Made by a program: the position numbers and the translations under genes
Shown here: positions 4,055 through 28,210 of the stretch, in pieces
How the letters are laid out: the number at the start of each line of letters is the position of its first letter
Position numbering within the stretch: the first letter of the stretch is position 1
Origin: Prevotella sp.
GTDB lineage: Bacteria > Bacteroidota > Bacteroidia > Bacteroidales > Bacteroidaceae
Assembly: GCA_017458125.1 (NCBI GenBank)
Contig: JAFTGB010000041.1
Location: 98,469 to 162,468 of the forward strand
Reading direction: 5' to 3'
DNA length: 64,000 nucleotides
Notes under the pieces: generated by a model
What the model saw: the letters and a program-made list of their open reading frames with translations, nothing else
Told to the model about the DNA's origin: nothing
The model's database searches: none

Positions 4055-4061
4055 CCCATCG

Positions 4062-4096
4062 CAGGAAAAATTCCCACGATGGGAATTTTTTTCCTG
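4062..4096 (+). terminator. Intrinsic terminator after tamL
   Basis: A 10-bp perfect stem (AAAAATTCCC with GGGAATTTTT) around the loop ACGAT ends in a run of seven T. It starts 8 bp after the tamL stop. Confidence 0.85.
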
Positions 4097-4130
4097 ACCA
4101 TCAGAATTTTTGTAATCAGCATCACTGTGG

Positions 4131-4235
4131 AGTTTGAAGTGTGAAATGTGAAGTTTGGAGTTTAAAGTTTATGATTATTGTCATTTCTACATTTTTCATT
4201 TACATTTCTCATTTCTCATTCCTCATTCCTCATTT
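4131..4235. repeat. AT-rich simple repeat tract
   Basis: The tract has many near-copies of two short words, GTGAAGTTTGGAGTTTAAAG-like on the left and CATTTCTCATTTCTCATTCC-like on the right. The same words recur between other genes in this window, for example at 8441-8475 and 14150-14181. No coding potential is seen. Confidence 0.75.
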
Positions 4236-4265
4236 TATATATATGTATAGTTGAATGTTTTTTCT

Positions 4266-4326
4266 GCCTGCACCCACAACACCCACAACACTGAAGTCCA
4301 GTGTTGTGGGTGTTGTGGGTGCAGGC
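4266..4326. repeat. 61-bp perfect hairpin element, copy 1
   Basis: Two 28-nt arms (4266-4293 and 4299-4326) are exact reverse complements around the 5-nt loop AAGTC. The arms contain two ACCCACAAC units. A run of eight T follows on the plus strand and six T precede it. It lies between the convergent tamL and aroB genes and could act as a terminator. The inner 29 nt are the exact reverse complement of the inner 29 nt of the hairpin at 57544-57604, so it is also a dispersed repeat. Confidence 0.9.
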
Positions 4327-4345
4327 ATTTTTTTTGTTTCACATA

Positions 4346-9061: not shown

Positions 9062-9508
9062 CTATTCTTTCTCTTGCCTGTCGTCGATGTTGTCGCCCTC
9101 GGTGGGTGCAAGGTCTTCCTCAAAGTCGGTGATGCCGGCGGCAACGAGGATGTTGTACCACTGGATGAGCTTCTTGATGTGGCTGCTCTGCACGCGGTCC
9201 TGGTCCCACTCGGGGAGCACGCGGGTGAAGTATTCCTTCAGCTCCTCGGGCGTAGCCTTCTTGTAGTTGAGCGACGACGGCTTGCCGCCCTCCAGGTCGC
9301 GCAGCGAGGCCATGACCTGCATGAGGGGTACGTCGTCGGTCTCGGTGAACATGGCGATGTCGGCCAGCGACGTGATGCGGTCGGTACCGAAGGCGGGCAT
9401 GCGCTTGTGAGTGCTGTCGAGTGCCTCCACGATGAGGCTGTTCTTGGCGCGTGAGACGAGTTTGTAAAGTCCGGGCTTACCGGAGATGGCTAAAATGGTT
9501 TGTTTCAT
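9062..9508 (-). CDS. DUF5606 domain-containing protein
   Basis: This 148-residue protein begins MKQTILAISGKPGLYKLVSR, which matches the conserved start of the Bacteroidota DUF5606 family. An SH3-like N-terminal part and a helical region containing LKEYFTRVLPEWDQDRV follow, and the tail is acidic (DNIDDRQEKE). The function is not known. There is no signal peptide, so it should be cytosolic. It is convergent with the fur gene and divergent from the fimbrial-type lipoprotein gene. Confidence 0.8.
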   Translation of the reverse strand: MKQTILAISGKPGLYKLVSRAKNSLIVEALDSTHKRMPAFGTDRITSLADIAMFTETDDVPLMQVMASLRDLEGGKPSSLNYKKATPEELKEYFTRVLPEWDQDRVQSSHIKKLIQWYNILVAAGITDFEEDLAPTEGDNIDDRQEKE

Positions 9509-9541
9509 TGTCTTCTTCGTTCTTTTTGGGTTTTAGGGTTG

Positions 9542-9600
9542 CAAAGGTACGCATTTTTATCCGTAATCTATTGTCTTTTCGGGAAAAAGTGTTATCTTTG
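9542..9600. promoter_or_regulatory. Divergent promoters for the DUF5606 and FimB-like genes
   Basis: A minus-strand -7 box TACCTTTG lies at 9542-9549 and a plus-strand -7 box TATCTTTG at 9593-9600. Each is about 25-35 bp upstream of its gene. Confidence 0.7.
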
Positions 9601-9622
9601 CATGACTAAAAACTGTTAAGCT

Positions 9623-10489
9623 ATGGTGAAAAAGTGGTTGCCTGTGTTGCTGCTGACGGTTGTGGCCTTGTTGTCGGCAGGATGTGAGAAGACGCTGTTA
9701 GAGGAGTCAGCGTCGGAGTCTGCGAGTAAGGGAAATGTGGTGCTGAGGCTGTCGGCCTACGAACAGATGGACTTCAGCACGCGCGGCGTACAGGACATTG
9801 CGCTGTTGTGCCGTCGGGTGAACGTGGCTTTCTTCCAGAACGGGACGAAGGTGCTGGCGGTGAGCCAGTCGGCAGGCGACGGAGCCTTTGGCACGGTGAG
9901 TGCGACGCTGCCCGAAGGCACATGTCAGGTGGTGGTGATGGCGCACAACAGTGACGGCTCGGCCACCATCAGCTCGGAACAGAAAGTCACATTCCCGAGC
10001 AATCAGGTCAGCGACACCTTTTATTATTATGGATCAGTGGAGGTGGGCGGCTCGCAGCGCGTCTACGACCTGGTGCTGAGGCGTGCCGTGTCGATGTTCA
10101 GGCTGGACGTGGTGAACGCACTGCCTGCTACTGCGGCGAAGATACGCTTCTACTACACGGGAGGCTCGTCGACGTTCAGTCCCTCGGCGGGCTACGGCTG
10201 TGTGAACTCGCGGCAGACGGTGATGATGCCGGTGGAGGCGGGGCAGACGGTGTTTGACGTCTACACGTTTCCGCATGAGGAGAGTGACGTGCTGAAGATG
10301 CTGGTGACGGTGTATACGGCTGAAGACAACATTCTGAAGGAACAGACGTTTGAGGAAGTGCCGGTGACGCGCAACCGGATTACGAAATATACGGGTGACT
10401 TCTTCAGCAGCTCGGCCAGCATGTCGGGCACGCAGTTCCGGCTGTCGGGCAATGGCGACTGGGACGGAACGGACGCCTACTCGTTCTGA
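9623..10489 (+). CDS. FimB/Mfa2-family fimbrial-type lipoprotein
   Basis: The product is 288 residues. A lipoprotein signal ends LLSAG-C at Cys21. The body resembles the FimB/Mfa2 family, which anchor or cap the major and minor fimbriae of Bacteroidales. Features seen are an early VVLRLSAYEQM strand, the VVVMAHNS segment, a DLVLRRAVSMFRLDV segment around residue 155 and a beta-rich second transthyretin-like half. No major fimbrillin gene adjoins it, so it is either a stand-alone surface lipoprotein or a partner of a fimbrillin coded elsewhere. It has its own promoter. Its 3' end overlaps the convergent coaE gene by 13 bp. Confidence 0.72.
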   Translation: MVKKWLPVLLLTVVALLSAGCEKTLLEESASESASKGNVVLRLSAYEQMDFSTRGVQDIALLCRRVNVAFFQNGTKVLAVSQSAGDGAFGTVSATLPEGTCQVVVMAHNSDGSATISSEQKVTFPSNQVSDTFYYYGSVEVGGSQRVYDLVLRRAVSMFRLDVVNALPATAAKIRFYYTGGSSTFSPSAGYGCVNSRQTVMMPVEAGQTVFDVYTFPHEESDVLKMLVTVYTAEDNILKEQTFEEVPVTRNRITKYTGDFFSSSASMSGTQFRLSGNGDWDGTDAYSF

Positions 10490-11019
10490 GCCAGAAGGCT
10501 AAGCAGCTGCTCCACCTGGCTGTCGACGTCGGCGGTGCCGTCGTTGACGATGACGTAGTGGGCGCGGCGGCTGACTTCGTCCTGCGGCCACTGGCGGCTG
10601 ATCCACTGCAGTGCCTTGTCGCGGCTGATGCCGTCGCGCTGCTGTATGCGGCTGATACGCACCTCTAAGGGAGCGACGACGGCAACGACGCGGTCTACCA
10701 GCTTGTCGGCTCCCGACTCGTACATGATGGCGCTCTCCATCCACTGCATGCCGCTCTGCTGAAAGTCGCGGAAGACGGCGGGGTGGATGATGGCGTTCAT
10801 GGCCTGCTGGTTGGCACTGCTGGCCAGCAGGAAACGGCTCATGGCGGCCTTGTCCAATGAACCGACGAGGGCGATGAGCTGCTGCTGCAAGTCGGGTGAG
10901 GTGCGGATGAGGCGCTTGGCGGCGGCGTCGCAGTCGTAGACGCTGATGCCGTGGGCGGCTAAGCGCTGGCATACGTAGCTCTTGCCGGCTCCGATGCCTC
11001 CGGCTATTCCTACTTTCAT
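10477..11019 (-). CDS. coaE: Dephospho-CoA kinase
   Basis: This 180-residue kinase phosphorylates dephospho-CoA in the last step of CoA synthesis. The P-loop GGIGAGKS is at residues 8-15, right after the ATG at 11019. A longer frame upstream has no conserved residues and is rejected. The YDCDAAAKRL segment near 33 is the conserved substrate-binding DAD/DCD motif, and a lid-like segment containing RISRIQQRD occurs near 125. The start overlaps the preceding gene's stop by 4 bp (ATGA type), so translation is probably coupled in the nusB-yajC-cdaR-coaE run. Confidence 0.93.
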   Translation of the reverse strand: MKVGIAGGIGAGKSYVCQRLAAHGISVYDCDAAAKRLIRTSPDLQQQLIALVGSLDKAAMSRFLLASSANQQAMNAIIHPAVFRDFQQSGMQWMESAIMYESGADKLVDRVVAVVAPLEVRISRIQQRDGISRDKALQWISRQWPQDEVSRRAHYVIVNDGTADVDSQVEQLLSLLAQNE

Positions 11020-11996
11020 TCTTCTTCTATCAGGTAGTCGACCTGCTTGGCACTGAGCGTGGCGCGGCTGATGCCGGGCGGCGTCTGACGCAGGTAGAGG
11101 TTGCACTTCTCGGAAGGTTTCTGGTCAATCTCGGCGTAGTCGGCCACGACGGTGAAGTCCTCGGGGCGCAGGAGGCGTATGCGGCTGGCTCCAGTGACGA
11201 AGTGTACCCTGACTTTGGCGGGGAACGTGCGCAGCACCTTGCCCGCAGGCAGGTTGATGCAGCCGATGGGTACGTTGATACTCTCCTCAGTGAGCACGTC
11301 GGTGAAGAAGCGGACCTTAATCTGCTCAGGCACCACCTTGACGTTGGCGGGGTGGGAGAGCTGGCAGGTGACGCGCAGCGTGTCGCGGAAGCCTACGTGG
11401 TTGAGGGGCTCGGTCTCGATGTAGCGGATGCTGTCGAGTTTCTCCTTCGAGGCGTAGACATCGACGCTGTCGGGCTCGTACTCGGTGTGGTCGATGAAGA
11501 AGAGCTGGTCGGGCATGACGCGTCCTGTCCAGCGCACGGGCACACGCTTGTATTCACCGTTGTTGTAGGAGAACTCCAGTTTGTCGGGCTTGACGGAGAT
11601 AATCTTCGACGAACTCTCTAACTGCTGGTCGATGAGTCGTTTGAGTTCGGAGGCCGATGCCGTGCCTGTGCCGTTGCCCTTGTCGTAGTTCTTGTAGTTA
11701 AGGCGCAGCTCGAACTGGAGGTCGCCGTAGAGGTAGGAGAAAATCATCCAGCCCTTGTCGCGCACGGTGAGGCGCACGGTGTCCACCTCGGTGGAGGTGA
11801 GCACGACGTTCTTGGGCACGTTGACGATGTGCACGGGTATCTTTATCTCCTTCTCGTACGTCTCGTTGAAGGTCTGGATAATCCAGAAGATGGCAGAGAG
11901 CACGACAAAGAACAAGAACACCAGGAACTGCCTGTTGATAATGCGTGACAGAAAGTTCCTGATGGTATCGAAGGTGCTGTTGTCGTCGGTGTGCAC
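11016..11996 (-). CDS. CdaR/YbbR-like domain protein
   Basis: The product is 326 residues. One membrane segment near residues 23-42 (FLVFLFFVVLSAIFWIIQ) is followed by extracytoplasmic beta-rich repeats typical of YbbR domains, such as KIPVHIVNVP and VTCQLSHPANVKV. In Firmicutes, CdaR proteins with such domains control a c-di-AMP cyclase. In Bacteroidota the gene commonly sits with yajC and coaE, as here, and its role is uncertain. The gene lies 21 bp after yajC and overlaps coaE by 4 bp. Confidence 0.8.
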   Translation of the reverse strand: MHTDDNSTFDTIRNFLSRIINRQFLVFLFFVVLSAIFWIIQTFNETYEKEIKIPVHIVNVPKNVVLTSTEVDTVRLTVRDKGWMIFSYLYGDLQFELRLNYKNYDKGNGTGTASASELKRLIDQQLESSSKIISVKPDKLEFSYNNGEYKRVPVRWTGRVMPDQLFFIDHTEYEPDSVDVYASKEKLDSIRYIETEPLNHVGFRDTLRVTCQLSHPANVKVVPEQIKVRFFTDVLTEESINVPIGCINLPAGKVLRTFPAKVRVHFVTGASRIRLLRPEDFTVVADYAEIDQKPSEKCNLYLRQTPPGISRATLSAKQVDYLIEEE

Positions 11997-16230: not shown

Positions 16231-16272
16231 TGATAGTCCTTTTTGGCGAAATGTTCTGAATATGGACGATGT

Positions 16273-16304
16273 TTTGGCGGATTGTTCCAAACGTCGTACC
16301 TTTG
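16273..16304 (+). promoter_or_regulatory. Promoter of the LuxR gene and probably of the sulfur cluster
   Basis: TTTG at 16273-16276 and TACCTTTG at 16297-16304 are spaced 20 bp apart. No terminator is seen between here and 23479. Confidence 0.7.
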
Positions 16305-16355
16305 CCGTCGGAAAGTTGCTTACGAGCAAAGGTAAATACAAACAACACAAGGACT

Positions 16356-16997
16356 ATGGCAAACTATATATTGGCAGATAATCAAGACCTGACGTGCTTC
16401 GCGGTGGAAAGCCTGTTGCGGAGTGACGAGCGGAACGTAGTGTACAGGGCTTCGGACAGGGCTGGTCTCATGCAGTTGCTGAAGGAGCATGAGAGCGCTA
16501 CGGTGGTGCTGGACTACACGCTGTTCGACTTTGCTGATGTGGAGCAGCTGGTGATAGTGAGCGAACGGTTTGCGCTGTCGCAGTGGCTGCTGGTGAGCGA
16601 TATGCTGTCGCCAGCCTTTCTGCGGAAGGTGGTGTATGCGACACATCAGTTCAGCATTATCTTTAAGGACTGTGGGCTGGGTGAGCTGCGCGAAGCCCTG
16701 CAGACCTTGTCGCACCACGGGCGTCACATCAGCCAGCGTGCGCTGGAGGTCGTCATCAGCCAGCAGCATGAGAATGAGGCTATGGACATTTTGACGGAGA
16801 CGGAGCGCGAGATAGTGCATGCCATCGCACAGGGCAAGACGACGAAGGAGATAGCCGCCGAGCGCTATTCGAGTGTTCACACAGTGACGACGCACCGCAA
16901 GAACATCTTCCGCAAACTCGGAGTGAATACGGCTCACGAGGTGGTGAAATACGCGCTGCGGGCAGGGCTGATAGACCAGGCAGAATTTTATATTTAA
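16356..16997 (+). CDS. LuxR/NarL-type response regulator
   Basis: The product is 213 residues from the ATG at 16356. An upstream frame contains the promoter and is rejected. The receiver domain is reduced: the probable phosphoacceptor is the Asp in VVLDYTLFDF near residue 53, and the Lys in IIFKDCGLGEL is near 109. The C-terminal domain is a clear LuxR HTH starting LTETEREIVHAIAQGKTTKE and ending with FRKLGVNTAHEVV. No histidine kinase gene adjoins it. It ends 15 bp before the sulfhydrylase-like gene, so it is probably the first gene of the sulfur operon and may regulate it. Confidence 0.85.
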   Translation: MANYILADNQDLTCFAVESLLRSDERNVVYRASDRAGLMQLLKEHESATVVLDYTLFDFADVEQLVIVSERFALSQWLLVSDMLSPAFLRKVVYATHQFSIIFKDCGLGELREALQTLSHHGRHISQRALEVVISQQHENEAMDILTETEREIVHAIAQGKTTKEIAAERYSSVHTVTTHRKNIFRKLGVNTAHEVVKYALRAGLIDQAEFYI

Positions 16998-17012: not shown

Positions 17013-18194
17013 ATGAAGAAACAGACGATAGCCATACATACGCCTTACGTGAGGCCTGACGCCTACGGGTCGCTGGCCGTACCCATATATCCGAACGTGG
17101 CGTTTGAGTTCGGCGATGCCCAGCAGATGGCCGATGCCTTCTGCAACCGCATCAAGGCTCCCGACTATGCGCGCATAGCCAATCCCACGGTGACGAATCT
17201 GGAACAGCGCGTCCGTGCGCTGACGGGTGCTGCCCATGTGACGGCCTTCAACTCGGGCATGGCAGCCATCAGCAACACGCTGCTGGCGGTCGCCGCACAA
17301 GGCAAGAACATCGTGACCTCGCGACACCTCTTCGGTAACACGCTGGCGCTGATCAGCGGCACGCTGCTGCGTCTGGGCATCAAGCCGCGACTGCGCGACC
17401 TGACAGACCTGGAGGCGGTGGAGCAGGCGGTGGACAACGAGACGGCTTGCATCTACCTGGAGACGGTGACGAACCCCCAGCTGGAGGTAGCCGATCTCGG
17501 AGCACTGGCAGAGATAGCCCACCGGAAGGGTGTGCCCCTGATAGTTGACAGCACCATCATCCCCTTCACCGAGACGTCGCTCAGCGTGCTGGGCGTGGAC
17601 GTGGAGGTGATATCGAGCACGAAGTACCTGTCAGGGGGCGGCACATCGCTGGGCGGACTGGTGATAGACTACGGCACCTTCCCGCAGATTAACCAACGCA
17701 TCAAGTACGACCTGCTGATCAACCTGGGGGCGTATATGGCTCCGCAGGTAGCCTACCAGCAGACCTTAGGACTGGAGACGCTCGATGTGCGCTACCAGCG
17801 GCAGGCGGCGAACGCGCTTTATCTGGCAGAGTCGCTGCGCGAGTGGGGCAACATCCGCAGGGTGAACTACATCGGGCTGAAGGACAATCCCTACTACGAG
17901 CTGGCACAGCGGCAGTTCGGCCCTACGGCAGGTGCCATGCTCACTATTGACTTGCAGTCGAAGGAGCATTGCTTCCGTATGCTGAACCGTCTGAGGCTCA
18001 TCCACCGCGCCACCAACCTGTTCGACTCGCGCACGCTGGCCATCCACCCGGCGAGCACCATCTTCGGACTATTTCCAGAGCGGCAACTGGAACAGATGGA
18101 CGTGCGGCAGACCACCATCCGGCTGTCGGTTGGGCTGGAAGATGCCGACGACTTGCTGGCCGACATCCAGCAGGCGCTGCAAGACGACTTGTGA
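17013..18194 (+). CDS. O-acetylhomoserine sulfhydrylase-like PLP enzyme (MetY/MetB family)
   Basis: This 393-residue Cys/Met metabolism PLP enzyme has the phosphate- and substrate-site segment DYARIANPTVTNLE near residue 50. FNSGMAA lies near 88, and LIVDSTIIPFTET supplies the PLP Asp. The PLP lysine is in SSTKYLSGGG near 207. C-terminal substrate residues occur in RLSVGLEDADDL. MetY-type members make homocysteine from O-acetylhomoserine and a sulfur donor, and MetB/MetC members cannot be told apart by eye. The downstream ThiS-, ThiF- and JAMM-type genes match the Wolinella thiocarboxylate route, in which MetY takes sulfur from a carrier protein. That context favours the MetY role here. Confidence 0.82.
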   Translation: MKKQTIAIHTPYVRPDAYGSLAVPIYPNVAFEFGDAQQMADAFCNRIKAPDYARIANPTVTNLEQRVRALTGAAHVTAFNSGMAAISNTLLAVAAQGKNIVTSRHLFGNTLALISGTLLRLGIKPRLRDLTDLEAVEQAVDNETACIYLETVTNPQLEVADLGALAEIAHRKGVPLIVDSTIIPFTETSLSVLGVDVEVISSTKYLSGGGTSLGGLVIDYGTFPQINQRIKYDLLINLGAYMAPQVAYQQTLGLETLDVRYQRQAANALYLAESLREWGNIRRVNYIGLKDNPYYELAQRQFGPTAGAMLTIDLQSKEHCFRMLNRLRLIHRATNLFDSRTLAIHPASTIFGLFPERQLEQMDVRQTTIRLSVGLEDADDLLADIQQALQDDL

Positions 18195-18221
18195 TGATTT
18201 ACGATTTACAGATTTACCATT

Positions 18222-18701
18222 ATGCAAGACACAAAGAAACTAAGCATCATCGCCTTCTCTGGCGACTTTGACAAGCTGACGGCTGTATTCACGCTGGCCA
18301 CAGGGGCTGCAGCAGTAGGCTACGAAGTGAACATCTTCTTCACCTTCTGGGGTCTTGACGCCATCAAGCACAAGCAGGGCAGAGCATTCATAGGCTCCAA
18401 CTGGCTCACCAAGACCTTCGGCTTCATGATGGGCGGGCTGAAGGTGACCCCCACCTCGCGTTTCAACTTCTGCGGTGCCGGCCCCAGAATATTCCGCTCG
18501 CTGATGCGCAAGAACAATGTCGCCACGCTGGAGGAACTGGTGGACGCCGCCAAGGCGCTGGATGTTAACCTCTACGCCTGCGAGATGGCTATGCACGTGC
18601 TGGGACTCAAGCGCGAGGACTTCATCCCTGAGGTGAAGGACGTGCTGGGCGTGGCATCGTTCCTGAAGTTTGCTGACGGCGGACAGACCTTATTTATTTA
18701 A
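18222..18701 (+). CDS. DsrE/DsrF-like sulfur-relay protein
   Basis: The product is 159 residues. It opens with KKLSIIAFSGDFDKLTAVF, has a hydrophobic helix with GAAAVGYEVNIFFTFWG, and carries a Cys in LYACEMAMHVLGL near residue 125. That is the position of the active Cys in DsrE/YrkE-like proteins, which accept and pass persulfide sulfur. It is followed directly by TusA, a classical partner. The upstream spacer holds a short TTTACGATTTACAGATTTACC repeat in place of a clear promoter. Confidence 0.82.
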   Translation: MQDTKKLSIIAFSGDFDKLTAVFTLATGAAAVGYEVNIFFTFWGLDAIKHKQGRAFIGSNWLTKTFGFMMGGLKVTPTSRFNFCGAGPRIFRSLMRKNNVATLEELVDAAKALDVNLYACEMAMHVLGLKREDFIPEVKDVLGVASFLKFADGGQTLFI

Positions 18702-18720
18702 CAAAAGATAAATTGAAGTT

Positions 18721-18945
18721 ATGGCAACAAAAACACTGGACATCACGAAGGAGCATTGCCCGATGACCTTCGTCAAGACAAAGATTGAACTGTCACGGCT
18801 ACAGCCGGGTGACACCTTGGAAGTGCTGCTCTCTGAGGGCGAACCGCTGGACAATGTGCCCCGCAATGCGGTGGAGCAGGGATACGACGTGCTCTCGGTG
18901 GAGCATGTGGAAGGCACCACGCACAAGGTCGTCATCAGAAAATAG
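18721..18945 (+). CDS. TusA-family sulfurtransferase
   Basis: This 74-residue protein has the TusA motif with Cys in EHCPMTFVKTKIEL near residue 13, the carrier of persulfide sulfur. The beta-alpha-beta-alpha pattern and the QPGDTLEVLLSEG segment fit the family. TusA proteins accept sulfur from a cysteine desulfurase and hand it on. Here the desulfurase is two genes downstream, which supports that flow. Confidence 0.9.
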   Translation: MATKTLDITKEHCPMTFVKTKIELSRLQPGDTLEVLLSEGEPLDNVPRNAVEQGYDVLSVEHVEGTTHKVVIRK

Positions 18946-19009
18946 CGGAATATGCAGACTAATAAGATAACCAGAGTTATTAACAATTAAAACAAGAGAA
19001 AACTGAACT

Positions 19010-20449
19010 ATGGCAGATTCAAATCTTCAACGCAGTGTGACCACTGCTACGGCCAGAAGACTGGCCACCACCACCAAGACCGCCCCGCAGATGGGCTCCA
19101 TCACCCCTCGTTTGCTCCTCAAGCTCCTGCCCTGGGTGCAGGTCAGCGGCGGCACGTTCCGCGTGAACCGCACGAAGGTAGAACTCCGCAAGAACGACCG
19201 CTTGCCCATCCAGTACGTCAACGGCCAGCCCTCGTTCACGGCCAAGGACCTGAAAGCGATACCCCTGTTCTCGGAGTTTGACGACGAAATTCTCGCCCGA
19301 CTCGTGAGCTCGTTCGAGGCCAAGGAGGTCGATGTCGACAAACTCTTTGTCGAGGAGGGCAAGGACAAGCAGCGCTTCTTCATCGTTGCCAGTGGCCAGG
19401 CCGAGGTCATCAGCAAGGGCCCCCACGGCGAGGACCTGCGGATAGCCCTCCTGGGCGACGGCGAATACTTCGGCGAGGCCGACCTGCTGGACGAGCAGGA
19501 GTCGACGGTCTCCGTGCGCGCCATCACGCCTACCGTCTTCCTCGGCCTGAAGCTCAAGGAGCTCATCAAGTTCATCAAGGAGGTGCCCGACTTCCGCGAG
19601 ACCTTCAACAAAGCCGTCGACAAGCAGCTGCGCCTCAAGGCATCGGTCAATGACAACGGCGAGAAGCACATCGACCTCGTCTCGGGCCACGAGGAGGACA
19701 ACATCATCCCCGAGACCTACATCGACTACGAGGAGAACCCCACCGAGTACTCGCTCAACACGCTGCAGACCGTCGTCCGCGTGCACACCCGCGTCAGCGA
19801 CCTCTACAACAATCCCTATAACCAGCTCGAAGAGCAGTTGCGTCTCAGCATCGAGAGTATTAAGGAACGCCAGGAGTGGGAGCTCATCAATAACCGTAAG
19901 TTCGGTCTCTTGGCCGCCGCCAACCCCGCCTACCGCATCACCACGCGCTACGGTGCCCCGACGCCCGACGACCTCGACGAACTGCTGTCATTAGTATGGA
20001 AGGAGCCGGCCTTCTTCATCGCCCATCCGCGAGCCATCGCTGCCTTCGAGCGCGAATGCACCTGGCGCGGCGTACCGCCCGTGACCACCGACCTCTTTGG
20101 CACCAAGGTCATCCTGTGGCGCGGTGTGCCTCTGATTCCCAGCGACAAGGTGGAGGTGGAAGGCCAGTATCTGACCGGCCGCGGTGTAGGCACCACCAAG
20201 ATTATCCTCGTCCGTGTCGGCGAGAAGAGTCAGGGTGTCGTCGGCCTCCACCAGAGCGGTATTCCCGGCGAGATAGCCCCGTCGCTCTCCGCCCGCCTGA
20301 TGGGCCTCGACAAGTTTGGCGTGGCTTCCTATCTGCTCACCAAGTATTTCTCATTAGCCTCGCTGACTGACGATGCTATCGCAGTGCTGGAAAATGTGGA
20401 GGTGGGCTACTATCACGACTATCAGCACCGCAACAAAGTAGAGAAATAA
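19010..20449 (+). CDS. Family 2B encapsulin shell protein with cNMP-binding domain
   Basis: The product is 479 residues. Residues about 1-75 form an extended N-terminal arm. Residues about 76-200 are a cyclic-nucleotide-binding fold: AIPLFSEFDDEILARLVSSF, then a GDGEYFGEADLLDEQ phosphate cassette with Glu but without the usual Arg-Ala after it, then STVSVRAITP. From about 225 on there is an HK97-type shell segment (VRVHTRVSDLYNNPYNQLEE, later IAHPRAIAAFERECTWRGVP, GTKVILWRGVPLIPSDKV and KSQGVVGLHQSGIPGE). This order is that of family 2B encapsulins and excludes a Crp regulator, because no HTH is present. Shell subunits self-assemble around cargo. The next gene, 3 bp away, is a cysteine desulfurase, the known cargo type of family 2A. 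Whether the cNMP domain binds a ligand is unknown. Confidence 0.9.
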   Translation: MADSNLQRSVTTATARRLATTTKTAPQMGSITPRLLLKLLPWVQVSGGTFRVNRTKVELRKNDRLPIQYVNGQPSFTAKDLKAIPLFSEFDDEILARLVSSFEAKEVDVDKLFVEEGKDKQRFFIVASGQAEVISKGPHGEDLRIALLGDGEYFGEADLLDEQESTVSVRAITPTVFLGLKLKELIKFIKEVPDFRETFNKAVDKQLRLKASVNDNGEKHIDLVSGHEEDNIIPETYIDYEENPTEYSLNTLQTVVRVHTRVSDLYNNPYNQLEEQLRLSIESIKERQEWELINNRKFGLLAAANPAYRITTRYGAPTPDDLDELLSLVWKEPAFFIAHPRAIAAFERECTWRGVPPVTTDLFGTKVILWRGVPLIPSDKVEVEGQYLTGRGVGTTKIILVRVGEKSQGVVGLHQSGIPGEIAPSLSARLMGLDKFGVASYLLTKYFSLASLTDDAIAVLENVEVGYYHDYQHRNKVEK

Positions 20450-20452
20450 ACC

Positions 20453-21925
20453 ATGATGACAGAACTACAGAATCTTTCCGGCTACGGACTGGAAGACCCC
20501 GGGTTTGAGCTTTTGCGCCAAGTGGCGCAAAAGTACTGCCCCGAGGAGTTGCAGTCAGAGCGCCGAGCCGTCATCCCCGACGAGGTGCTGAATATAGAGG
20601 CCCTCGCCGCCCTCGTCCCGTCTGAAGCTGTGTCACAGCATCCCCAGGAGCCCTCCTCCATCCGCCCCTTCGGCGAGACCGAGCTCAGCCACCTCCACTA
20701 CGAAGAGACCGACACGCTCTCGACGGACGAGATCAAGAAGGACTTCCCCGTGTTGCAGCAGCGTGTGAACGGCCACCCGTTAGTATGGCTCGACAACGGT
20801 GCCACGACGCAGAAGCCCCTGCAGGTGATAGACAAGATTTCGGACTACTACCGCAACTACAACTCCAACATCCATCGCGGTGCCCACACGCTGGCTGCTC
20901 GCGCTACCGATGCCTACGAGGCTGCCCGCGAGAAGGTGCGCCGCTTCATCAACGCCCCGTCGGCTGACGACATCATCTTCGTGCGGGGTACCACCGAGGG
21001 CATCAACCTCGTGGCACAGACCTACGGTCGGCAGTATCTGACCCCTGGCGACAATGTCATCGTCTCCGAGCTCGACCATCACGCTAATATCGTTCCCTGG
21101 CAGCAGGTGGCCAACGAGCGGGGTGCTGAGCTGCGCGCCATTCCTACCGACAAGAACGGCGACCTCATCCTCTCCGAGCTGGAGCGACTCATCACACCGC
21201 GCACACGCTTCGTCTCCGTGGGCCACGTGAACAACACCTTTGGCACCATCAACGACGTGCAGCGCATCATCGACATCGCCCATTCGCACAACATCCCCGT
21301 GCTCATCGACGGCGCTCAGTCGATAGCCCACACGCCTGTCGACGTGCAGCAACTCGGTGCCGACTTCTTCGTGTTCAGCGGTCATAAGATTTATGGCCCC
21401 AACGGCATTGGCGTGGTCTATGGCCGCAAGGATATATTAGAGAAGATGCAGCCTTGGCAGGGCGGCGGCAACATGATTAAGGATGTTACCATCGAGCGCA
21501 CGGAATATAACGTGCCGCCCGCCCGCTTTGAGGCCGGCACACCCAATGTGGCCGATGCTATCGGTTTGGGGGCAGCCCTCGACTACGTGAGCAGTATCGG
21601 CATCCGCAATATCGAGGCTCACGAGCACCAGCTCACGGAGTATGCCCGCGAGCAGCTGGCACAGGTGCCCGGGCTGCACCTCATCGGCAATCCCAAGCGT
21701 AGGGTCAGCGTGGTGTCGTTCTATCTCGACGGTATCCCCGTGCCCGAGACGGGCAAGCTGCTCGACCAGGAGGGCATCGCCGTCCGCGCCGGCCACCACT
21801 GTGCCCAGCCTGCCCTGCGTGCCCTGGGTCACGAGATGTCGGTGCGTCCCACCTTCGCCCTCTATAATTCGCGTGACGATGTAGACCGTCTGGTCATCGC
21901 CCTGCGGAAAATTGTTGGAAGTTGA
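20453..21925 (+). CDS. Cysteine desulfurase, probable encapsulin cargo
   Basis: The product is 490 residues. The catalytic domain starts near residue 88 (STDEIKKDFPVLQQRVNGHP) and is of the SufS/CsdA type. PLP sits on the Lys in VFSGHKIYGPNGIG. The persulfide Cys is in RAGHHCAQPALR near 442, and the PLP-site DGAQ is near 285. About 85 residues precede it that ordinary SufS lacks; they are rich in Pro, Ser, Glu and Leu and look mostly unstructured. Cargo desulfurases of family 2A encapsulins have such an N-terminal extension for loading. It lies 3 bp after the shell gene. It should release sulfur from cysteine as persulfide inside the shell for TusA or the ThiS-like carrier. Confidence 0.92.
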   Translation: MMTELQNLSGYGLEDPGFELLRQVAQKYCPEELQSERRAVIPDEVLNIEALAALVPSEAVSQHPQEPSSIRPFGETELSHLHYEETDTLSTDEIKKDFPVLQQRVNGHPLVWLDNGATTQKPLQVIDKISDYYRNYNSNIHRGAHTLAARATDAYEAAREKVRRFINAPSADDIIFVRGTTEGINLVAQTYGRQYLTPGDNVIVSELDHHANIVPWQQVANERGAELRAIPTDKNGDLILSELERLITPRTRFVSVGHVNNTFGTINDVQRIIDIAHSHNIPVLIDGAQSIAHTPVDVQQLGADFFVFSGHKIYGPNGIGVVYGRKDILEKMQPWQGGGNMIKDVTIERTEYNVPPARFEAGTPNVADAIGLGAALDYVSSIGIRNIEAHEHQLTEYAREQLAQVPGLHLIGNPKRRVSVVSFYLDGIPVPETGKLLDQEGIAVRAGHHCAQPALRALGHEMSVRPTFALYNSRDDVDRLVIALRKIVGS

Positions 21926-21978
21926 GAATTGAGCGTTGTCGGCTCACGGATTAAGCATTAAACATAGAAAAAAGAAAT

Positions 21979-22254
21979 ATGGCAAAGTTAACAGTTAACG
22001 GAGAAGTTCAGGAGGTGCAGTTGCCCCTGACGCTCACACAGCTTATCAAACAGAATAATGTGCTACAGCCCGAGATGGTCAGCGTCCAGGTGAACGAGGA
22101 CTTTGTGGACCGCAGCGAGTGGGACGCTATCCAAATTCAGGAGGGCGACTTGGTGGACTTCCTTTACTTCATGGGGGGCGGAAGCTATTGGACTATTGGA
22201 CGATTTACAATTAGACAATTACCAGCTGATACATACGGTAAAATAGTAAAATAG
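21979..22254 (+). CDS. ThiS-like sulfur carrier protein with C-terminal extension past Gly-Gly
   Basis: The product is 91 residues. The first 68 are a complete ubiquitin-like ThiS/HcyS fold (LTVNGEVQEVQLPLTLTQLI ... GDLVDFLYFMGGG). ThiS-type carriers must end in Gly-Gly for adenylation and thiocarboxylate formation. Here 23 more residues follow (SYWTIGRFTIRQLPADTYG and KIVK), and their codons lie in an AT-rich simple repeat. The stop seems to have been lost or displaced by the repeat. Carriers of the HcyS and QbsE types carry a shorter tail that a JAMM protease removes, and such a protease is coded 0.8 kb downstream. A role in homocysteine rather than thiamine synthesis is inferred from the neighbours. 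Confidence 0.82.
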   Translation: MAKLTVNGEVQEVQLPLTLTQLIKQNNVLQPEMVSVQVNEDFVDRSEWDAIQIQEGDLVDFLYFMGGGSYWTIGRFTIRQLPADTYGKIVK

Positions 22255-22268
22255 TGAAATAGTAAAAT
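22190..22268. repeat. AT-rich simple repeat covering the carrier's 3' end
   Basis: Words of the form ATTGGACTATTGGACGATTT, then three near-copies of GTAAAATA, run from inside the carrier gene to the start codon of the E1 gene. Confidence 0.75.
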
Positions 22269-23075
22269 ATGGTAGATTTCACAGAAGAACAGATACAACG
22301 CTACTCGCGGCATATCCTGTTGCAGGACGTTGGCGTCGAGGGGCAAGAGAAGATCATGAACGCCCGAGTATTGGTGGTCGGAGCAGGCGGCTTAGGTGCT
22401 CCTGTATCGCTCTACCTCGCTGCTGCGGGCATCGGGCGCATTGGCATCATCGATGCCGACGTGGTAGACCTCTCGAACCTGCAGCGTCAGGTCATCCACT
22501 TCACCAAGGACGTGGGGCGTCCGAAGGTGGAGAGCGCCAAGGAGAAAATACAGGCCATCAACCCCGATGTCGAGGTCGACACCTACCATGAATTCCTCTA
22601 TTCGGGCAATGCGCTGGATATTATCAGACAGTACGACTTCATCGTCGACGGCACAGACAACTTCCCAGTGAAGTTCCTCATCAATGATGCCTGCGTGATG
22701 GCCGGCAAACCCTTCTCGCACGGTGGTATCCTGCGTTTCAACGGCCAGACGTTCACTCATCTGCCCGGCACGGCGTGCTACCGTTGCTTCTTTAAGGAAC
22801 CGCCGCCCGCTGGAGCCGTACCCACCTGCTCGCAGGCCGGTGTGCTCGGAGCCATCGCGGGTATGCTGGGCACCATTCAGGCCGCCGAGACGCTTAAATA
22901 CTTCACAGGCGTAGGCGAACTGCTCACCAACCGCCTGCTGACCTTCGATGCCAAGACGATGCAATTCCGCACCATTCCTGTGCGCCAGCGTCCGTCGTGC
23001 GAGATATGCGGCGAGCATCCCACCATCACGCAGCTGATAGACTACGAGCAGGCCGCCTGCGACCTTCATAAGTGA
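22269..23075 (+). CDS. ThiF/MoeB/HesA-family E1-like adenylyltransferase
   Basis: The product is 268 residues. It begins with the E1 signature RYSRHILLQDVGVEGQEK, then the nucleotide loop VGAGGLGAP near residue 37. DADVVDLSNLQRQ and DGTDNF are the Mg/ATP residues. The catalytic Cys is probably the one in VPTCSQAGVLG near 180. Zinc-binding pairs are CYRC near 165 and CEIC near 244. There is no C-terminal rhodanese domain. It should adenylate the Gly-Gly end of the adjacent carrier so that sulfur can be added. It starts 14 bp after the carrier stop. Confidence 0.92.
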   Translation: MVDFTEEQIQRYSRHILLQDVGVEGQEKIMNARVLVVGAGGLGAPVSLYLAAAGIGRIGIIDADVVDLSNLQRQVIHFTKDVGRPKVESAKEKIQAINPDVEVDTYHEFLYSGNALDIIRQYDFIVDGTDNFPVKFLINDACVMAGKPFSHGGILRFNGQTFTHLPGTACYRCFFKEPPPAGAVPTCSQAGVLGAIAGMLGTIQAAETLKYFTGVGELLTNRLLTFDAKTMQFRTIPVRQRPSCEICGEHPTITQLIDYEQAACDLHK

Positions 23076-23092
23076 AAAATATGCATTAACCG

Positions 23093-23479
23093 ATGATTAT
23101 ACCACAGAGCATAATAAATGAATTGACAGTACAGGCTCAGAAGGATGCGCCCAATGAGACCTGTGGCTATCTCTTAGGAATCGATGATGTCGTCATCGAG
23201 AACTACTGGATGGAGAACATCGACCACTCGCCGGAGCACTTCAGCTTTGCTCCCAAGGATCAGTTTGCGGCACTGCGGTATGCGCGGTCAAAAGGACTGA
23301 AGATTCTTGCCAACTGGCACTCGCATCCCGCTTCGCCGTCGCGTCCCTCGCAGGAGGACTTGCGCCTGGCCAACGACCCCACCATCCGCTATGCCATCCT
23401 CTCGCTCTACGAGGGCATCCACCTGAATTCGTTCAGAATTTCTGGTGGCGAGGTCGTCGACAAGGAGGTACACCTCTGA
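23093..23479 (+). CDS. JAMM/MPN+ metalloprotease, M67-type
   Basis: The product is 128 residues. It has the complete JAMM zinc motif: Glu in NETCGYLLG near residue 21, then NWHSHP near 77, then Ser and Asp in SRPSQED near 84-90. Bacterial JAMM proteases of this size (Mec+, QbsD, HcyD) trim residues after the Gly-Gly of sulfur carriers so that the E1 can act. The carrier in this operon has an extra C-terminal stretch, which makes this role very plausible. It is the last gene of the cluster, 17 bp after the E1 gene. Confidence 0.9.
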   Translation: MIIPQSIINELTVQAQKDAPNETCGYLLGIDDVVIENYWMENIDHSPEHFSFAPKDQFAALRYARSKGLKILANWHSHPASPSRPSQEDLRLANDPTIRYAILSLYEGIHLNSFRISGGEVVDKEVHL

Positions 23480-23793: not shown

Positions 23794-23982
23794 ATGAAAA
23801 CAATGAACGTGAAGCGAATGCAATGCCACACTCTCAACGAGAGAATGCGATCCTGTTGCGGCATGCAGATGATGAGAAATGAAAAGGAGGGTAGTATACA
23901 CATTACTTATAAATATAAAGAACGGCAAACGTATGAAAAAGAACATTTTTACCATAGCATTGATTTTAGGGCTGCAGCTTAG
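23794..23982 (+). other. Short open frame upstream of and overlapping the PstS-like gene
   Basis: A 62-codon frame begins at the first ATG after the promoter and runs 50 bp into the next gene in another frame. It contains CHTLNERMRS, close to RHTLKER of the downstream protein, and the DNA behind both is similar. It may be a leader peptide or a remnant of a partial duplication. There is no signal peptide and no family is recognised. The 454 bp from 23480 to 23932 otherwise hold the inverted element and the promoter. Confidence 0.25.
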
Positions 23983-24877
23983 TCTGACAGCCGTTGCACA
24001 ACAGTCAGAAATTGCATTGCAACGCCACACGCTCAAAGAGAGAACGCCACACGCTCAAAGAGAGAAGGTAACCCTGCGCGTGCCAGACTTCGCACGTCCG
24101 TTGGTCGAGAAATGGGTTGAAGAGTATCAGAAGACCAATATGGAAGCCGATTTCCAGTTTATCTCAGGGAAATCGCAAAACACAGAAAATAGCCTCGCAC
24201 TTACTACCGGCAACTCCGCCGTACTTGTGGCACGCTATGCTGTGCTGCCAGTCACCACGCGCGGCTCCGAAGCCGAGCAGTTGGTTGGTGGGCATGCCTT
24301 GAATGCGAAAAAGCTGAAGCAGCTGTTCTTCGTCAACGACGACCTGGACGACGAACGTAAGGAAGGAAAGCTGGAGCAGCGATTGCACATCGTGACAGGT
24401 AACAGCCCACTGTCGGCTTCGCGCCTGTATGCAAAGAAATTCCATCAGGAGACAGTCAACTACAAAGGTAAAAAGATATCAGGAGACGATTCTTACCTCA
24501 ACCTTGCCATTAGCCGCGACCCGCTGAGCGTGACGGTCAACTCGCTGTCGAACATCTTCGACCTGGAGAGCCGCCAGCTGCGCCAGACGCTGGCCCTGTT
24601 GCCCCTGGATGTCGACAAGCAGGGACGACAGGTGCTCAGCGGGGGAAGTCTGGACGACATCCTGCAGTTGCTGGAGAACAAGCACTATGATGAGATTGCT
24701 GTTGGCGATATTGGATTCGAGTATAATCGTGCCAACTCCGTCCTGACCAGCTTTGTACAGTGGGTGCTGCAGAATGGTACACAGTATGTCCACCAGTATG
24801 GTCTGCTGCAATTGTCGCAGCAGGAACTGCTGGCGCAGTTGCGCCGTACGGTGCAGCATGAGCTGGCACAGAAATAG
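23933..24877 (+). CDS. PstS-like secreted substrate-binding protein
   Basis: The product is 314 residues with a signal peptide (KKNIFTIALILGLQLSLTAVA) cleaved before QQSE. The mature part resembles the PstS-like periplasmic-binding fold: VTLRVPDFARPLVEKWVEEY, then TGNSAVLVARYAVLPVTTRG, then HIVTGNSPLSASRLYAKKF. The closing IAVGDIGFEYNR segment is also typical. The ligand is unknown. Residues about 28-44 are coded by a perfect 22-bp tandem duplication, 24022-24066 region. Because 22 is not a multiple of 3, the two copies read in different frames (RHTLKER, then TPHAQRE). The following SusC, SusD and thioredoxin genes suggest one uptake locus. Confidence 0.7.
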   Translation: MKKNIFTIALILGLQLSLTAVAQQSEIALQRHTLKERTPHAQREKVTLRVPDFARPLVEKWVEEYQKTNMEADFQFISGKSQNTENSLALTTGNSAVLVARYAVLPVTTRGSEAEQLVGGHALNAKKLKQLFFVNDDLDDERKEGKLEQRLHIVTGNSPLSASRLYAKKFHQETVNYKGKKISGDDSYLNLAISRDPLSVTVNSLSNIFDLESRQLRQTLALLPLDVDKQGRQVLSGGSLDDILQLLENKHYDEIAVGDIGFEYNRANSVLTSFVQWVLQNGTQYVHQYGLLQLSQQELLAQLRRTVQHELAQK

Positions 24878-24980: not shown

Positions 24981-27900
24981 ATGAAGAAAAGATTGGTTTT
25001 AATTTTGATGGTGCTGGGCACGGTATTGCCGTCGGCCCTGGCACAGACCACGCTGACGGGCCGCATTGCGGATGCCCGTACAGGAGAACCGCTGGCTGGC
25101 GCCACACTGGTGCCCAAGTCGAGCAAGGAAGTAGGGACGGTGACGAACTATGACGGGCGCTTCCGGCTGCAGACCAAGCAACAGCTGCCGCTCACGCTGA
25201 TTGTCCAGTTTATAGGCTATCGCCCTCAGGAGGTGGATGTCTACGATGCTTCTGAGGAGATAGACATACAGCTCATTGAGGTGCCCAACTACCTGAGTGA
25301 GGTTGTGGTGACGGCCCTTGGCATCTCGCGCGAGAAGAAAGCCCTGGGATATTCGGCACAGGGCATCGATGCTGATGCGTTGAGCACGGGCAAGGACAAC
25401 AACCTGCTGAACTCGCTGGAGGGAAAACTGGCGGGTGTGCGCATCACCAACACCCAGGGAGATGTCGGATCGAGCCGTATCATCATTCGTGGCGAAACCT
25501 CGATAGCGGGCGAGAACCAGCCGCTGTTCATAGTCGATGGTATTCCCGTGGACAACTCGCAGCTCAATGCACAGACTCAGGGACGTGACCCTAAGAATGC
25601 CATTGCTGACCTGAACCCGGAGGACATCGAGAACATCACCGTGCTGAAGGGACCCAATGCCTCGGCGCTCTATGGCTCGCGAGCTGCACATGGCGCGATA
25701 GTGATTACCACCAAGACGGGGCGTGGCAGCAAGGGGCTGGGTATTACCGTACACTCGTCCACCCAACTGGCAACAGCCGCCAACCTGCCTGATTTCCAGA
25801 ATGTGTTTGGTCAGGGTGCCGGCGGACAGTTCAGCTATGTAAACGGTGCAGGAGCCGGCATCAACGACGGTGTGGACGAAAGCTGGGGCCCACGGCTCGA
25901 CATCGGTCTGCTGATACCGCAGTTCGACAGCCCGCTGGATGCCAACGGCAACCGCACGGCTACTCCGTGGGTGTCGCATCCAGATAATGTGAAGGACTAT
26001 TTCCGTACGGGACTCACCCAGAATACGGGCATCTCCATAGCGCGTTCGGCAGACAACTTCCAGTTCCGCTTGGCTTTCAACCATGAATATCAACGTAGCA
26101 TCGTTGAAGGCTCGTCGAACAACAAGAGCAATGTCAACCTGAATGTAGATTACGACTTGACCAAATGGCTCAGCGTGGGGGCTACCGCCAACTATATCAT
26201 CTATAAGGCCCCCAACATCCCAGGGTCTGCCGGTGCCACAGGTTCTAACTATCGTGCCAACTCGACGATGCTCCAGTATCTGTGGTTCGGGCGACAGGTG
26301 GACGACGCTTCCCTGCGTGACGACTATTCGCGCAACTGGAATGCCAGTTACTACTCAAACCCCTATTGGAGTGCCTACTACAACACCTATGAGCAGGAGC
26401 GTCACCGACTCATTGGCGACCTGCATGCTACATTCCATGTCATCAAGGGCCTTGACCTGCGCTTCCGCACCAGCACAGACTGGTATCAGGATCGCCGCAA
26501 GGCGAAGGTGAAGTGGGGAACGAGCGGCACGCCCTATGGCAAATATGAGGAGGATGCCTACACCGTCCAGGAGAATAATACGGAGCTGACGGCCGTCTAC
26601 AACAGAAAACTGTCGGACGACCTGACCCTCGATGCCCTGCTGGGATGGAACGTGCGCAACAAGCGCTATGAGAACAATTATCAGGCTGCTCCCGACTGGC
26701 TGTGGCTGACCTCTATACGCTGACCAACTCGCGCGACCAGCTCGTATCCAGCAACTATTTCTATCGCTTGCGCCAGTATGGTCTCTATGGTTCCGTGCAG
26801 GTAGGATATAAGGACTGGGCTTTCCTGAATGTCACCGGGCGCAACGACTGGTCGTCGACGCTGCCCAAGGATAACAACTCCTATTTCTACCCCTCGGTTA
26901 CGGCCAGCGTGCTGCTGACGGAGGCTCTGGGACTGAAGAGTAACACACTCAACTATCTGAAGTTGCGCGGTGGCTGGTCGCAGGTGGGCTCTGATGCCGA
27001 TCCCTACCAGCTGGCCACGGTGTTCACCTCGGAAACGGCGTTCAACGGCAATCCACTGCAGACCACCAGCGGACAAGGCAAGAACGCCAACTTAAAACCC
27101 GAACGCACCACCTCCTGGGAGGCTGGTCTTGAGGCTCGTCTGCTGGACGACCGCATCCGACTGGACTTCTCCTGGTATCAGACCGACTCGAAAGACCAGA
27201 TTCTTCAGCTGGCCACCACGGCAGCCAGCGGCTATAACACGCAGGTTCGCAATGCGGGCCATATCCGCAATCGCGGCTATGAAATACAGCTCGGAGTGAC
27301 CCCGGTGCTCACCAAGAAGTTCAGGTGGGATGTGGATGTGAACTACGGACACAACGACAGCAAGGTCATCAAGTTGGACGACGAGGGGCTGATTACCAGC
27401 TACCAGCTGTATTCGTCGGGCATCCAGATTCTGGCTACAGTCGGCGAGTCCTATGGCACACTCTTCGGTTCGGCCTATACTCGTGATGCGCAGGGTCGCA
27501 TCGTGGTCGATGCCAACGGACTGCCCAAGGTGTCGTCTTCGTCAAAGATATTGGGAAAGTTCTCGCCAAACTGGATAGGCAGCATTCAGAATACCTTCAA
27601 ATACAAGGACTTCACGCTGTCGTTCCTGATTGATGCCAGCTTCGGAGGCTCTATCTTCTCGAATACCAACAAGACGGGACGCTATACGGGTGTGCTGGAG
27701 AACACACTGTCAGGACGCGCAGCAGACTATGGCGGACTGTGGTACTATGTGGACAATGGCAACCGCATCCAGATCAGTCAGCCACAATATACCACTACGA
27801 GTGACGGACTCTATTATGCCGATGTTAACGGCCAGAATACCCGCGTCTATCAGGACGGTATCATCGTCGACGGAGTGACCGAGGACGGACAGCCCAACAC

Positions 27901-28210
27901 CACCGTCGTGTCGGCAGAGAACTATTATCACCGTCTGTATAATATAGCTGAGGCTAACGTCTATGACGCTTCGTTCGTGAAACTGCGCGAACTGTCCATT
28001 GGATACAACCTGCCGAAGTCCGTCTATAGTCGGCTCGGATTGCAGGGCGCTTCTGTCACGCTGACGGCCCGCAACCTGTGGACTATCTACAAGAAAGCCG
28101 ACAACATCGACCCGGAGGCTGCCATCACGGCAGGTAATGCACAGGGAGTGGAGGCGTATACGCTGCCCACCGCCCGTACCTACGGACTGAACATCAATGT
28201 AAAATTCTAA
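24981..28210 (+). pseudogene. SusC/RagA-family TonB-dependent transporter broken by a frameshift
   Basis: From ATG 24981 the frame codes a signal peptide (VLILMVLGTVLPSALA), a CarboxypepD_reg domain (TLTGRIADARTGEPLAGATL), a plug domain (RIIIRGETSIAGENQPLFIV, later VLKGPNASALYGSRAAHGAI) and the start of the barrel. It then stops at 26723. The rest of the barrel continues in another frame from about 26702 to 28210. The total is 3230 nt, and adding one base gives 1077 codons. The sequence at the join, CTGTGGCTGAC, looks like CTGGTGGCTGAC minus one G, giving WLVADLYTLT, as expected for the family. A matching SusD gene follows intact. Lost function, sequencing error and phase variation are all possible. 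Confidence 0.85.

Follow-up and report, generated by a model that had tools for sequence, protein, structure and literature searches.

A conserved Prevotella gene set in which an encapsulin-linked cysteine desulfurase is a probable sulfur source for thiocarboxylate-dependent homocysteine synthesis

Introduction

Two sulfur systems that have been described separately, encapsulin-linked cysteine desulfurases and thiocarboxylate-dependent homocysteine synthesis, meet in an eight-gene cluster at positions 17013 to 23479 of a 64,000-nucleotide stretch of Prevotella sp. DNA (GenBank assembly GCA_017458125.1, contig JAFTGB010000041.1, positions 98,469 to 162,468; the whole stretch is referred to here as the window). 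One of the closest described systems is that of Wolinella succinogenes, which reportedly makes methionine in a protein thiocarboxylate-dependent way with HcyS, HcyF, HcyD and MetY, as Krishnamoorthy and Begley are said to have described in 2011. Another is found in Escherichia coli, where sulfur passes from the desulfurase IscS to TusA and then to a thiocarboxylate carrier on the routes to MoaD and tRNA. In that case IscS is not known to be packaged and the product is other than homocysteine.

In W. succinogenes, a protein thiocarboxylate is the sulfur source of a MetY-type enzyme (PMC6271081, in part; here and below, "in part" marks statements that draw on a portion of the cited text). Row 4e of Table 1 in Iyer, Burroughs and Aravind 2006 (PMC1779556, in part) lists operons with a ThiS/MoaD-like protein, a JAB protein, an E1 without rhodanese, and SirA, and further lists O-acetylhomoserine (OAH) sulfhydrylase and sulfite reductase; W. 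succinogenes is included among the operons with TusA/SirA and OAH sulfhydrylase. As far as that portion of the table goes, these operons match a form of the Prevotella cluster that lacks the shell, and they differ from the form in the window in that neither a shell nor a cysteine desulfurase is in the row's list. The likeness to Wolinella extends to a carrier with a C-terminal tail, to the E1 and JAMM proteins, and to a MetY in the same group as the structure 3ri6. The neighbours differ: in Wolinella they are sulfate assimilation genes (row 4e, PMC1779556, in part), whereas in Prevotella they are an encapsulin, a desulfurase and DsrE2.

On the shell side, the closest described system is the family 2 encapsulin SrpI of Synechococcus, which the Prevotella cluster resembles in its shell, over the cut-off for family 2B, in an adjoining SufS-type desulfurase, and in an N-terminal extension of that enzyme, where a block lies at the place of the family 2A motif. 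The SrpI cargo has a 225-residue N-terminal domain that carries two motifs and is needed for loading (PMC8049743, in part), as opposed to about 90 residues in the Prevotella desulfurase. Encapsulated desulfurases have been proposed either to supply sulfur for Fe-S or thio-cofactors or, alternatively, to provide a store of polysulfide (PMC8049743, in part). A survey of encapsulins lists 199 family 2B desulfurase operons and gives serine O-acetyltransferase and rhodanese as the accessories most enriched in desulfurase operons (PMC8346489, in part). The accessories of the Prevotella set are instead the carrier, E1, JAMM, MetY, TusA and DsrE, and a word search of the survey's main text gave no mention of TusA or JAMM. 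Both halves of the cluster are thus known (PMC1779556 and PMC8346489, each in part), and what appears to be new is their joining in one gene set. No description of the joined shell and carrier set was found among the papers listed in searches of the open-licence literature, although the supplements of the survey may hold an entry.

Here we propose, from comparison of sequences, that thiocarboxylate-dependent homocysteine synthesis probably draws on two exchangeable sources of sulfur, one of them the encapsulated desulfurase. The direct observations from which this proposal starts are the gene set, its conservation, a swap of the genes beside the carrier, the grouping of MetY, and the catalytic motifs.

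Results and Discussion

All eight genes are on the + strand, and successive genes from MetY to JAMM are separated by spacers of 27, 19, 64, 3, 53, 14 and 17 bases. A preliminary description of this DNA had named these same-strand genes, their order, their short spacing and their families, and it is borne out by the positions of the open reading frames together with Pfam and NCBIfam matches. The first gene encodes a MetY-like pyridoxal phosphate enzyme, an OAH sulfhydrylase of the 3ri6 type (17013..18194; PF01053, Cys_Met_Meta_PP, 312 bits). It is followed by genes for a DsrE2-like sulfur-transfer protein (18222..18701; PF13686, DrsE_2, 138.8 bits; NF047629 at 75, below its cut-off of 210), a TusA sulfurtransferase (18721..18945; PF01206, 73.7 bits), and a family 2B encapsulin shell (19010..20449; NF041163, 565.1 bits with a cut-off of 400; PF19307, 374.8; PF00027, 52). 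A SufS-type cysteine desulfurase, the probable cargo, comes next (20453..21925; TIGR01979, 554.8 bits with a cut-off of 475.1). The last three genes, called the trio below, encode a ThiS-like carrier resembling HcyS, which ends in MGGG plus a 23-residue tail (21979..22254; TIGR01683, 61 bits), an E1-like adenylyltransferase resembling HcyF (22269..23075; PF00899, ThiF, 279 bits), and a JAMM metalloprotease resembling HcyD (23093..23479; PF14464, Prok-JAB, 83.2 bits).

The catalytic motifs of the window are intact: SGHK and GHHCA in the desulfurase, CPMT in TusA, ETCGY and HSHP..PSQED in JAMM, and SSTKY in MetY. Motifs and gene orders were counted in 113 Prevotella loci with repeats removed; these go beyond the 80 loci described below, some having been picked for looking odd, and the motif denominators omit genes that are cut, absent or below 50-60% identity. 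The Lys and Cys motifs of the desulfurase were each found in 86 of the 87 readable loci, the cysteine of the TusA CPxT motif in 90/90, and the YACEM cysteine motif of DsrE in 84/86.

Conservation of the neighbourhood had been named beforehand as a check on the joining of the two systems. We took the 80 closest shell loci from named genomes, the titles of which are mostly Prevotella, Prevotellaceae and Xylanibacter, with a few Bacteroidales and Bacteroidaceae and one Alistipes, and many of which are from rumen or other ruminant gut samples. At least 5 kb (and at most 9 kb) was available on either side of the shell gene in 45 of the 80, the well-flanked loci. MetY, DsrE, TusA and the desulfurase were present in 45/45 of these, and the carrier, E1 and JAMM in 41/45. 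With six gene orders among the loci, the encapsulin and carrier systems are joined, as had been claimed, in a conserved gene set.

The shell is present in 96 of the 113 loci, with a desulfurase in 95 of the 96. The full trio is out of view in 26 of the shell loci, many of which are short contigs, and the other 70 fall into the six orders. Most frequently the trio is divergent and upstream (38 loci, plus 8 without MetY in view); the order of the window was seen in 17 loci, and in 4 the trio is in line upstream, two of these having it about 10-11 kb off. Three orders were each seen at a single locus: L216, where the trio is about 13 kb off, L220, and L231. The last mixes both halves in the order MetY-ThiS-E1-DsrE-TusA-JAMM-shell-CD, where CD is the cysteine desulfurase. 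Reshuffling of this kind, with little separation, is what linkage under selection would predict.

Co-occurrence was examined in 249 genomes sampled from the genus. The shell was over its cut-off in 59 and a strong JAMM match (E 3.4e-22 or better) was present in 73; the tally at the Pfam cut-off is 88 genomes, and the other 15, whose matches are all weaker or partial, were excluded. Both shell and strong JAMM were found in 55 genomes, the shell only in 4, JAMM only in 18, and neither in 172. Shell fragments (in G536 and G477, and an extra one in G426) were kept outside this count, and adding them gives 56/61 with strong JAMM. The four shell-only genomes, with five shell places, are all cut by contig ends beside the cluster. 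For the 62 shell places as a whole (60 over the cut-off and two fragments), JAMM lies at most 15 kb away in 52, 46 kb off in one (G579), and on another contig in 4, and 5 places are cut. Two genomes have two shell places each (G466 on C99 and C138; G426 on C32 and C63, the second being a fragment), possibly through strain mixture.

The genomes with JAMM only showed what replaces the shell. We examined the regions of 17 of the 18, leaving aside G536, whose shell is split over two contigs. In ten of the 18, including G536, a contig ends inside the cluster or next to it, and three of those ten show shell-type DsrE, TusA or shell pieces. The genomes of the other 8 all encode a sulfite reductase that has TusA as its C-terminal domain. 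This fusion directly follows the carrier-E1-JAMM trio in the shell-less genomes G405, G424, G432, G502 and G605, and likewise in G579, which has its shell elsewhere. In G402, G465 and G505 the reductase shows piecewise identity of 40-50%, and its gene is either about 17 kb away from JAMM or on a different contig. Among the 249 genomes the fusion was found in 17, and 17/17 have a strong JAMM; 50 of the 59 shell genomes have a match to TusA alone and none to the reductase part.

In the shell-less Prevotella locus L197, the sulfite reductase with its C-terminal TusA (9462-11849) stands by the carrier, E1 and JAMM genes. Downstream of it are genes for an NAD-binding siroheme-type protein and then a tetrapyrrole methylase, and further on are a phosphoadenosine phosphosulfate (PAPS)-reductase-family (CysD-like) gene and a GTPase (CysN-like) gene, as found by a family scan of L197 only. 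Thus, the trio has two TusA-linked neighbours, either encapsulin and cysteine desulfurase or sulfite reduction. The presence of the fusion next to this trio independently supports the earlier suggestion that TusA may be the link from the sulfur source to the carrier. We regard this source swap as the strongest evidence that TusA would hand sulfur to the carrier and that the shell and desulfurase would be its source, though it is no proof of flux.

Two minor features were seen near shell-less trios. A SAM-I/IV riboswitch in L197 (6113-6215, - strand; 62.5 bits with a gathering threshold of 41.1) is located some 1 kb upstream of the genes for LuxR, carrier and sulfite reductase and points away from them. 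In L205, a gene at 1302-5030 (- strand) encodes a 1243-aa protein with a start that, judging by one motif, may resemble that of Cas12a.

The swap also bears on a different use of the shell. Encapsulated cysteine desulfurases have been described as involved in sulfur storage (PMC12407261, in part), and the shell could be mainly a store, with elemental sulfur deposited inside by the desulfurase that DsrE2 and TusA would mobilise for several uses; the MetY and carrier branch would be just one of the users, linked to the store by shared regulation only. That DsrE and TusA are in view at every well-flanked locus, and the trio at 41 of the 45, speaks for such a store. However, MetY is just as constant as DsrE and TusA, and the trio mostly stays near through the rearrangements; together with the replacement by a reductase beside the same trio, this points to the carrier as the main outlet. 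We therefore consider it unlikely that the shell is mainly a store. This is nevertheless the main rival to our proposal, and storage could form part of the mechanism that we favour.

The carrier, E1 and JAMM had been likened to the Wolinella pathway, and the carrier sequences agree with that comparison in having a C-terminal tail that would need trimming. We could read 87 carriers (81 distinct) with a YFMGGG end through to the stop; 26 of the 113 loci gave no carrier match. Residues follow the GGG in 87/87, and the tails are 1-10 residues long, so that the 23-residue tail in the window (22183-22254) is longer than that of any of these relatives. Seven ThiG-linked ThiS proteins of another lineage stop exactly at GGG, by a search pattern that would miss long tails. 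The JAMM motifs HSHPx(5-7)PSxxD and E[TS]CGY were present in 86/86 loci, the two zinc pairs of E1 in 82/83 and 81/83, and its catalytic Cys region in 82/83. A tailed carrier, an E1 and a JAMM with its metal motif are therefore encoded together, as in the Wolinella type of system. Trimming of the tail before activation, as with HcyS and HcyD, would fit a tail that is free in length and sequence behind GG and an intact JAMM gene next door.

The same three families could also be taken for a ubiquitin-like conjugation system of the kind formed by archaeal SAMP and desampylase, with a different product for MetY. The E1 scores 338 bits with the model of the SAMP-activating E1 (UbaA), and the score of JAMM with the desampylase model is 55 bits, but both scores are under the curated cut-offs (450 and 130, respectively). 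In addition, there is no E2-like gene among the eight, and the sulfur enzymes on either side, together with a 3ri6-type MetY, point to sulfur transfer. Conjugation is thus a very improbable function for these genes.

The window MetY scores 321.7 with TIGR01326, under the cut-off of 495.1 for the classical OAH sulfhydrylase. Its closest match in the PDB is 3ri6 (323.9 bits vs 244.6 for the runner-up), reportedly the Wolinella enzyme that Tran et al. described in 2011. The MetY of L207, which lies beside a sulfite reductase, also has 3ri6 as its top match (357 vs 268.4 bits). In a 24-row tree, which is rooted at the midpoint, has long branches and includes PDB rows as aligned parts only, 17 cluster MetYs, the L207 MetY and 3ri6 form one group with support of 100/100. 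Outside this group are 7kb0, two other OAH sulfhydrylases of the genome from which the window comes (G000), and two enzymes of another lineage. The grouping fits the MetY half of the Wolinella pathway, as had been proposed, if 3ri6 is indeed the Wolinella enzyme.

G000 is 3.37 Mb in size and 88% complete, and the window lies within its contig C5. It encodes MetA (445.9 bits). Four PF01053 matches in this genome are over the cut-off: the cluster MetY, one enzyme on C61, one on C24, and part of the cluster desulfurase. No cystathionine enzyme of the PF01053 family is among these matches, in a genome that is 88% complete.

The shell is a family 2B encapsulin as defined by NF041163, with a PF00027 cyclic-nucleotide-binding-like insert at residues 113-190. 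Its best PDB match is 9bje (394.3 bits), and its nearest solved relatives include 6x8m and 9bhu. Because work on the inserted domain has shown that it does not bind cyclic nucleotides (PMC12407261, in part), we claim no control by cyclic AMP. The N-terminal extension that had been noted on the desulfurase is indeed present and is about 90 aa long. Its first block, LLRQVAQKYCPEE in the window, is conserved, and in the alignment it falls at the position of LANELF..LPNE in family 2A cargo and of LASRLFNE.PE in cargo from f18, a family of another class; the extensions of L226 and L233 have no alignment at the position of this block. Judging from these features, we think it likely that the desulfurase is packaged in the shell.

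In the mechanism that we propose, an operon that is probably under a LuxR-type regulator would carry cysteine sulfur to homocysteine without cystathionine. As a member of its family, the SufS-type desulfurase would remove sulfur from cysteine inside the family 2B encapsulin. The persulfide or sulfane sulfur would then pass to DsrE2 and TusA, a step that is supported by the fusion in the sister system. Shielding the cytosol from reactive sulfur had been suggested as a possible purpose of this arrangement. JAMM would trim the carrier to its GG end, in keeping with the tail and the conserved motifs, after which E1 would adenylate the carrier and TusA-derived sulfur would yield the thiocarboxylate. 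Finally, MetY, as its grouping with 3ri6 suggests, would form homocysteine from the carrier thiocarboxylate and O-acylhomoserine. In the version with the other source, the same trio (with a MetY of the same group at L207) would be supplied by the sulfite reductase-TusA fusion with CysDN-like genes. With this gene set, a candidate chain of acceptors can be named for the sulfur of an encapsulated desulfurase, together with a candidate end product, and if the mechanism is correct, it would be a third way from cysteine to methionine sulfur in rumen bacteria, besides cystathionine and free sulfide. More tentatively, we raise the possibility of a protein-based transsulfuration organelle, in which sulfur would be protein-bound throughout, with no cystathionine and no free sulfide, and an exchangeable source cassette would serve one carrier core; we hold this broader idea with some doubt.

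Several observations weigh against the proposed mechanism. Its weakest step is the exit of sulfur, since TusA (~8 kDa) may be too large for the shell pores; if it does not enter the shell, transfer at the pore or by a small-molecule carrier must be assumed. The desulfurase is under the cut-off of the cargo model NF041166 (720.5 vs 800, with model positions 213-623 matched), which is a family 2A model that also places the longer cargo of another lineage (L140) below its cut-off, at 794.8. At 4 of the 45 well-flanked loci (L045, L055, L060 and L078) no carrier trio is in view; for L078, the trio does appear in a longer stretch, L217, at a distance of about 10 kb from the shell gene. The co-occurrence of shell and JAMM has a Fisher p of 2e-34, which ignores shared ancestry and is not trustworthy as a figure. 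The branch between 3ri6 and the cluster MetYs is long, so that the substrate could have changed along it. Lastly, the carrier is over the cut-off of the thiamine ThiS equivalog (TIGR01683, 61 vs 37.45), and the E1, although under the MoeB equivalog cut-off (TIGR02355, 218.2 vs 376.55), is over that of the general MoeB subfamily (NF004281, 280.9 vs 266).

A thiamine carrier was considered on its own account and rejected for most shell genomes. Strong ThiG matches, defined as E 4.9e-42 or better, were found in 39 genomes of the sample, as opposed to 140 at the Pfam cut-off; the weaker matches, which were excluded, are confined to profile positions ~116-232 in the cases listed, and the frames that hold them are some 270-550 aa long. 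A strong match is present in only 7 of the 59 shell genomes, and G000, 88% complete, has no ThiG match. Given this scarcity, thiazole synthesis is not the general use of the carrier.

The remaining points against our proposal concern the independence of the two halves. The sole strong JAMM of G579 adjoins sulfite reductase, 46 kb from the shell, and 9 of the 59 shell genomes also encode the fusion, so that the two sources are not mutually exclusive. In addition, the C61 enzyme of G000 is a classical OAH sulfhydrylase (TIGR01326, 620.3 with a cut-off of 495.1) and the C24 enzyme, truncated by a contig end, is a second one (493.1); therefore, the carrier pathway is not the sole possible route to homocysteine. 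All of this would suit a sulfur island of separate functions, where the shell and desulfurase serve, for example, Fe-S clusters or cysteine detoxification, and the carrier, E1, JAMM and MetY draw on sulfide or on sulfite reductase. Yet 50 of the shell genomes gave no match to the reductase part, so that the trio would often be without that source, and the interleaved genes of L231 and the spacers of 3-64 bases in the window also argue against separate functions. We judge an island of this kind to be quite improbable, and continue to favour the encapsulated desulfurase as the likely source for the carrier.

Encapsulin-linked desulfurases of other lineages were compared. For f18, we read 55 places that have a 2B shell; in 34 of them the sequence extends 5 kb or more before the shell and 7 kb or more beyond it. 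Within these 34, the desulfurase and a cysteine synthase are present in 34/34, a CysE-like gene in 22/34, and ThiG and ThiH in 16/34; at least one Cys/Met-family enzyme was seen in 23/34 and at least two in 21/34. In about half of these f18 places, then, the encapsulin-linked desulfurase also has a ThiS-type carrier system nearby, but one for thiazole. This is a hint, though no proof, that shells of this kind feed thiocarboxylate carriers more widely. In two further families, five 2A shells are accompanied by a desulfurase, with none of the other cluster genes in view. As an example from f18, the families scanned in L140 (2274-14342) include a 2B shell and a desulfurase whose N-terminal extension is long, as well as cysteine synthase-like, hexapeptide transferase, OAH sulfhydrylase, ThiG, radical SAM (ThiH-like) and ThiF genes.

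A gene for a LuxR-type regulator with a GerE helix-turn-helix (HTH) domain (16269..16997, + strand; PF00196, 53.8 bits) ends 15 bases before MetY, and the operon probably begins with it. A relative was seen at 24 of the 45 well-flanked shell loci and also adjoins the trio in the sulfite reductase loci L197, L207 and L214. The results on co-occurrence and gene order indicate that the gene set is more than a chance arrangement. A riboswitch search over the operon gave none, and one sub-threshold miRNA match is a chance match. A scan for promoter-like sites (9 vs 4.1 expected) and terminator-like sites (2 vs 6.3 expected) was uninformative.

All eight genes are present in genomes titled like isolates, namely Prevotella sp. 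khp7 (L044) and Prevotella aff. ruminicola Tc2-24 (L047), and in Xylanibacter ruminicola D31d (L068), the title of which also reads as an isolate. The mechanism can thus be tested directly, with the natural swap of sources as a built-in comparison.

Because f18 held most of the shells in a phylum-level sample, we considered whether the contig of the window had been mis-binned. NusB from the window is 71% identical to that of a genome of the same genus and 55-58% identical to those of three genomes of the same family, while its matches in five f18 genomes are partial only. By these identities, the contig fits the genome to which it is assigned.

Downstream of JAMM, the window encodes a protein of 332 aa that looks exported and matches no Pfam or NCBIfam model (23879-24877). 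Relatives of it (~35-67% identity) occur near the cluster in several Prevotella loci. It is followed at 24981-28207 by a gene that looks like a SusC/TonB receptor, named by look, which is in two overlapping frames (24981-26720 and 26702-28207). The split resembles a frameshift or an assembly error.

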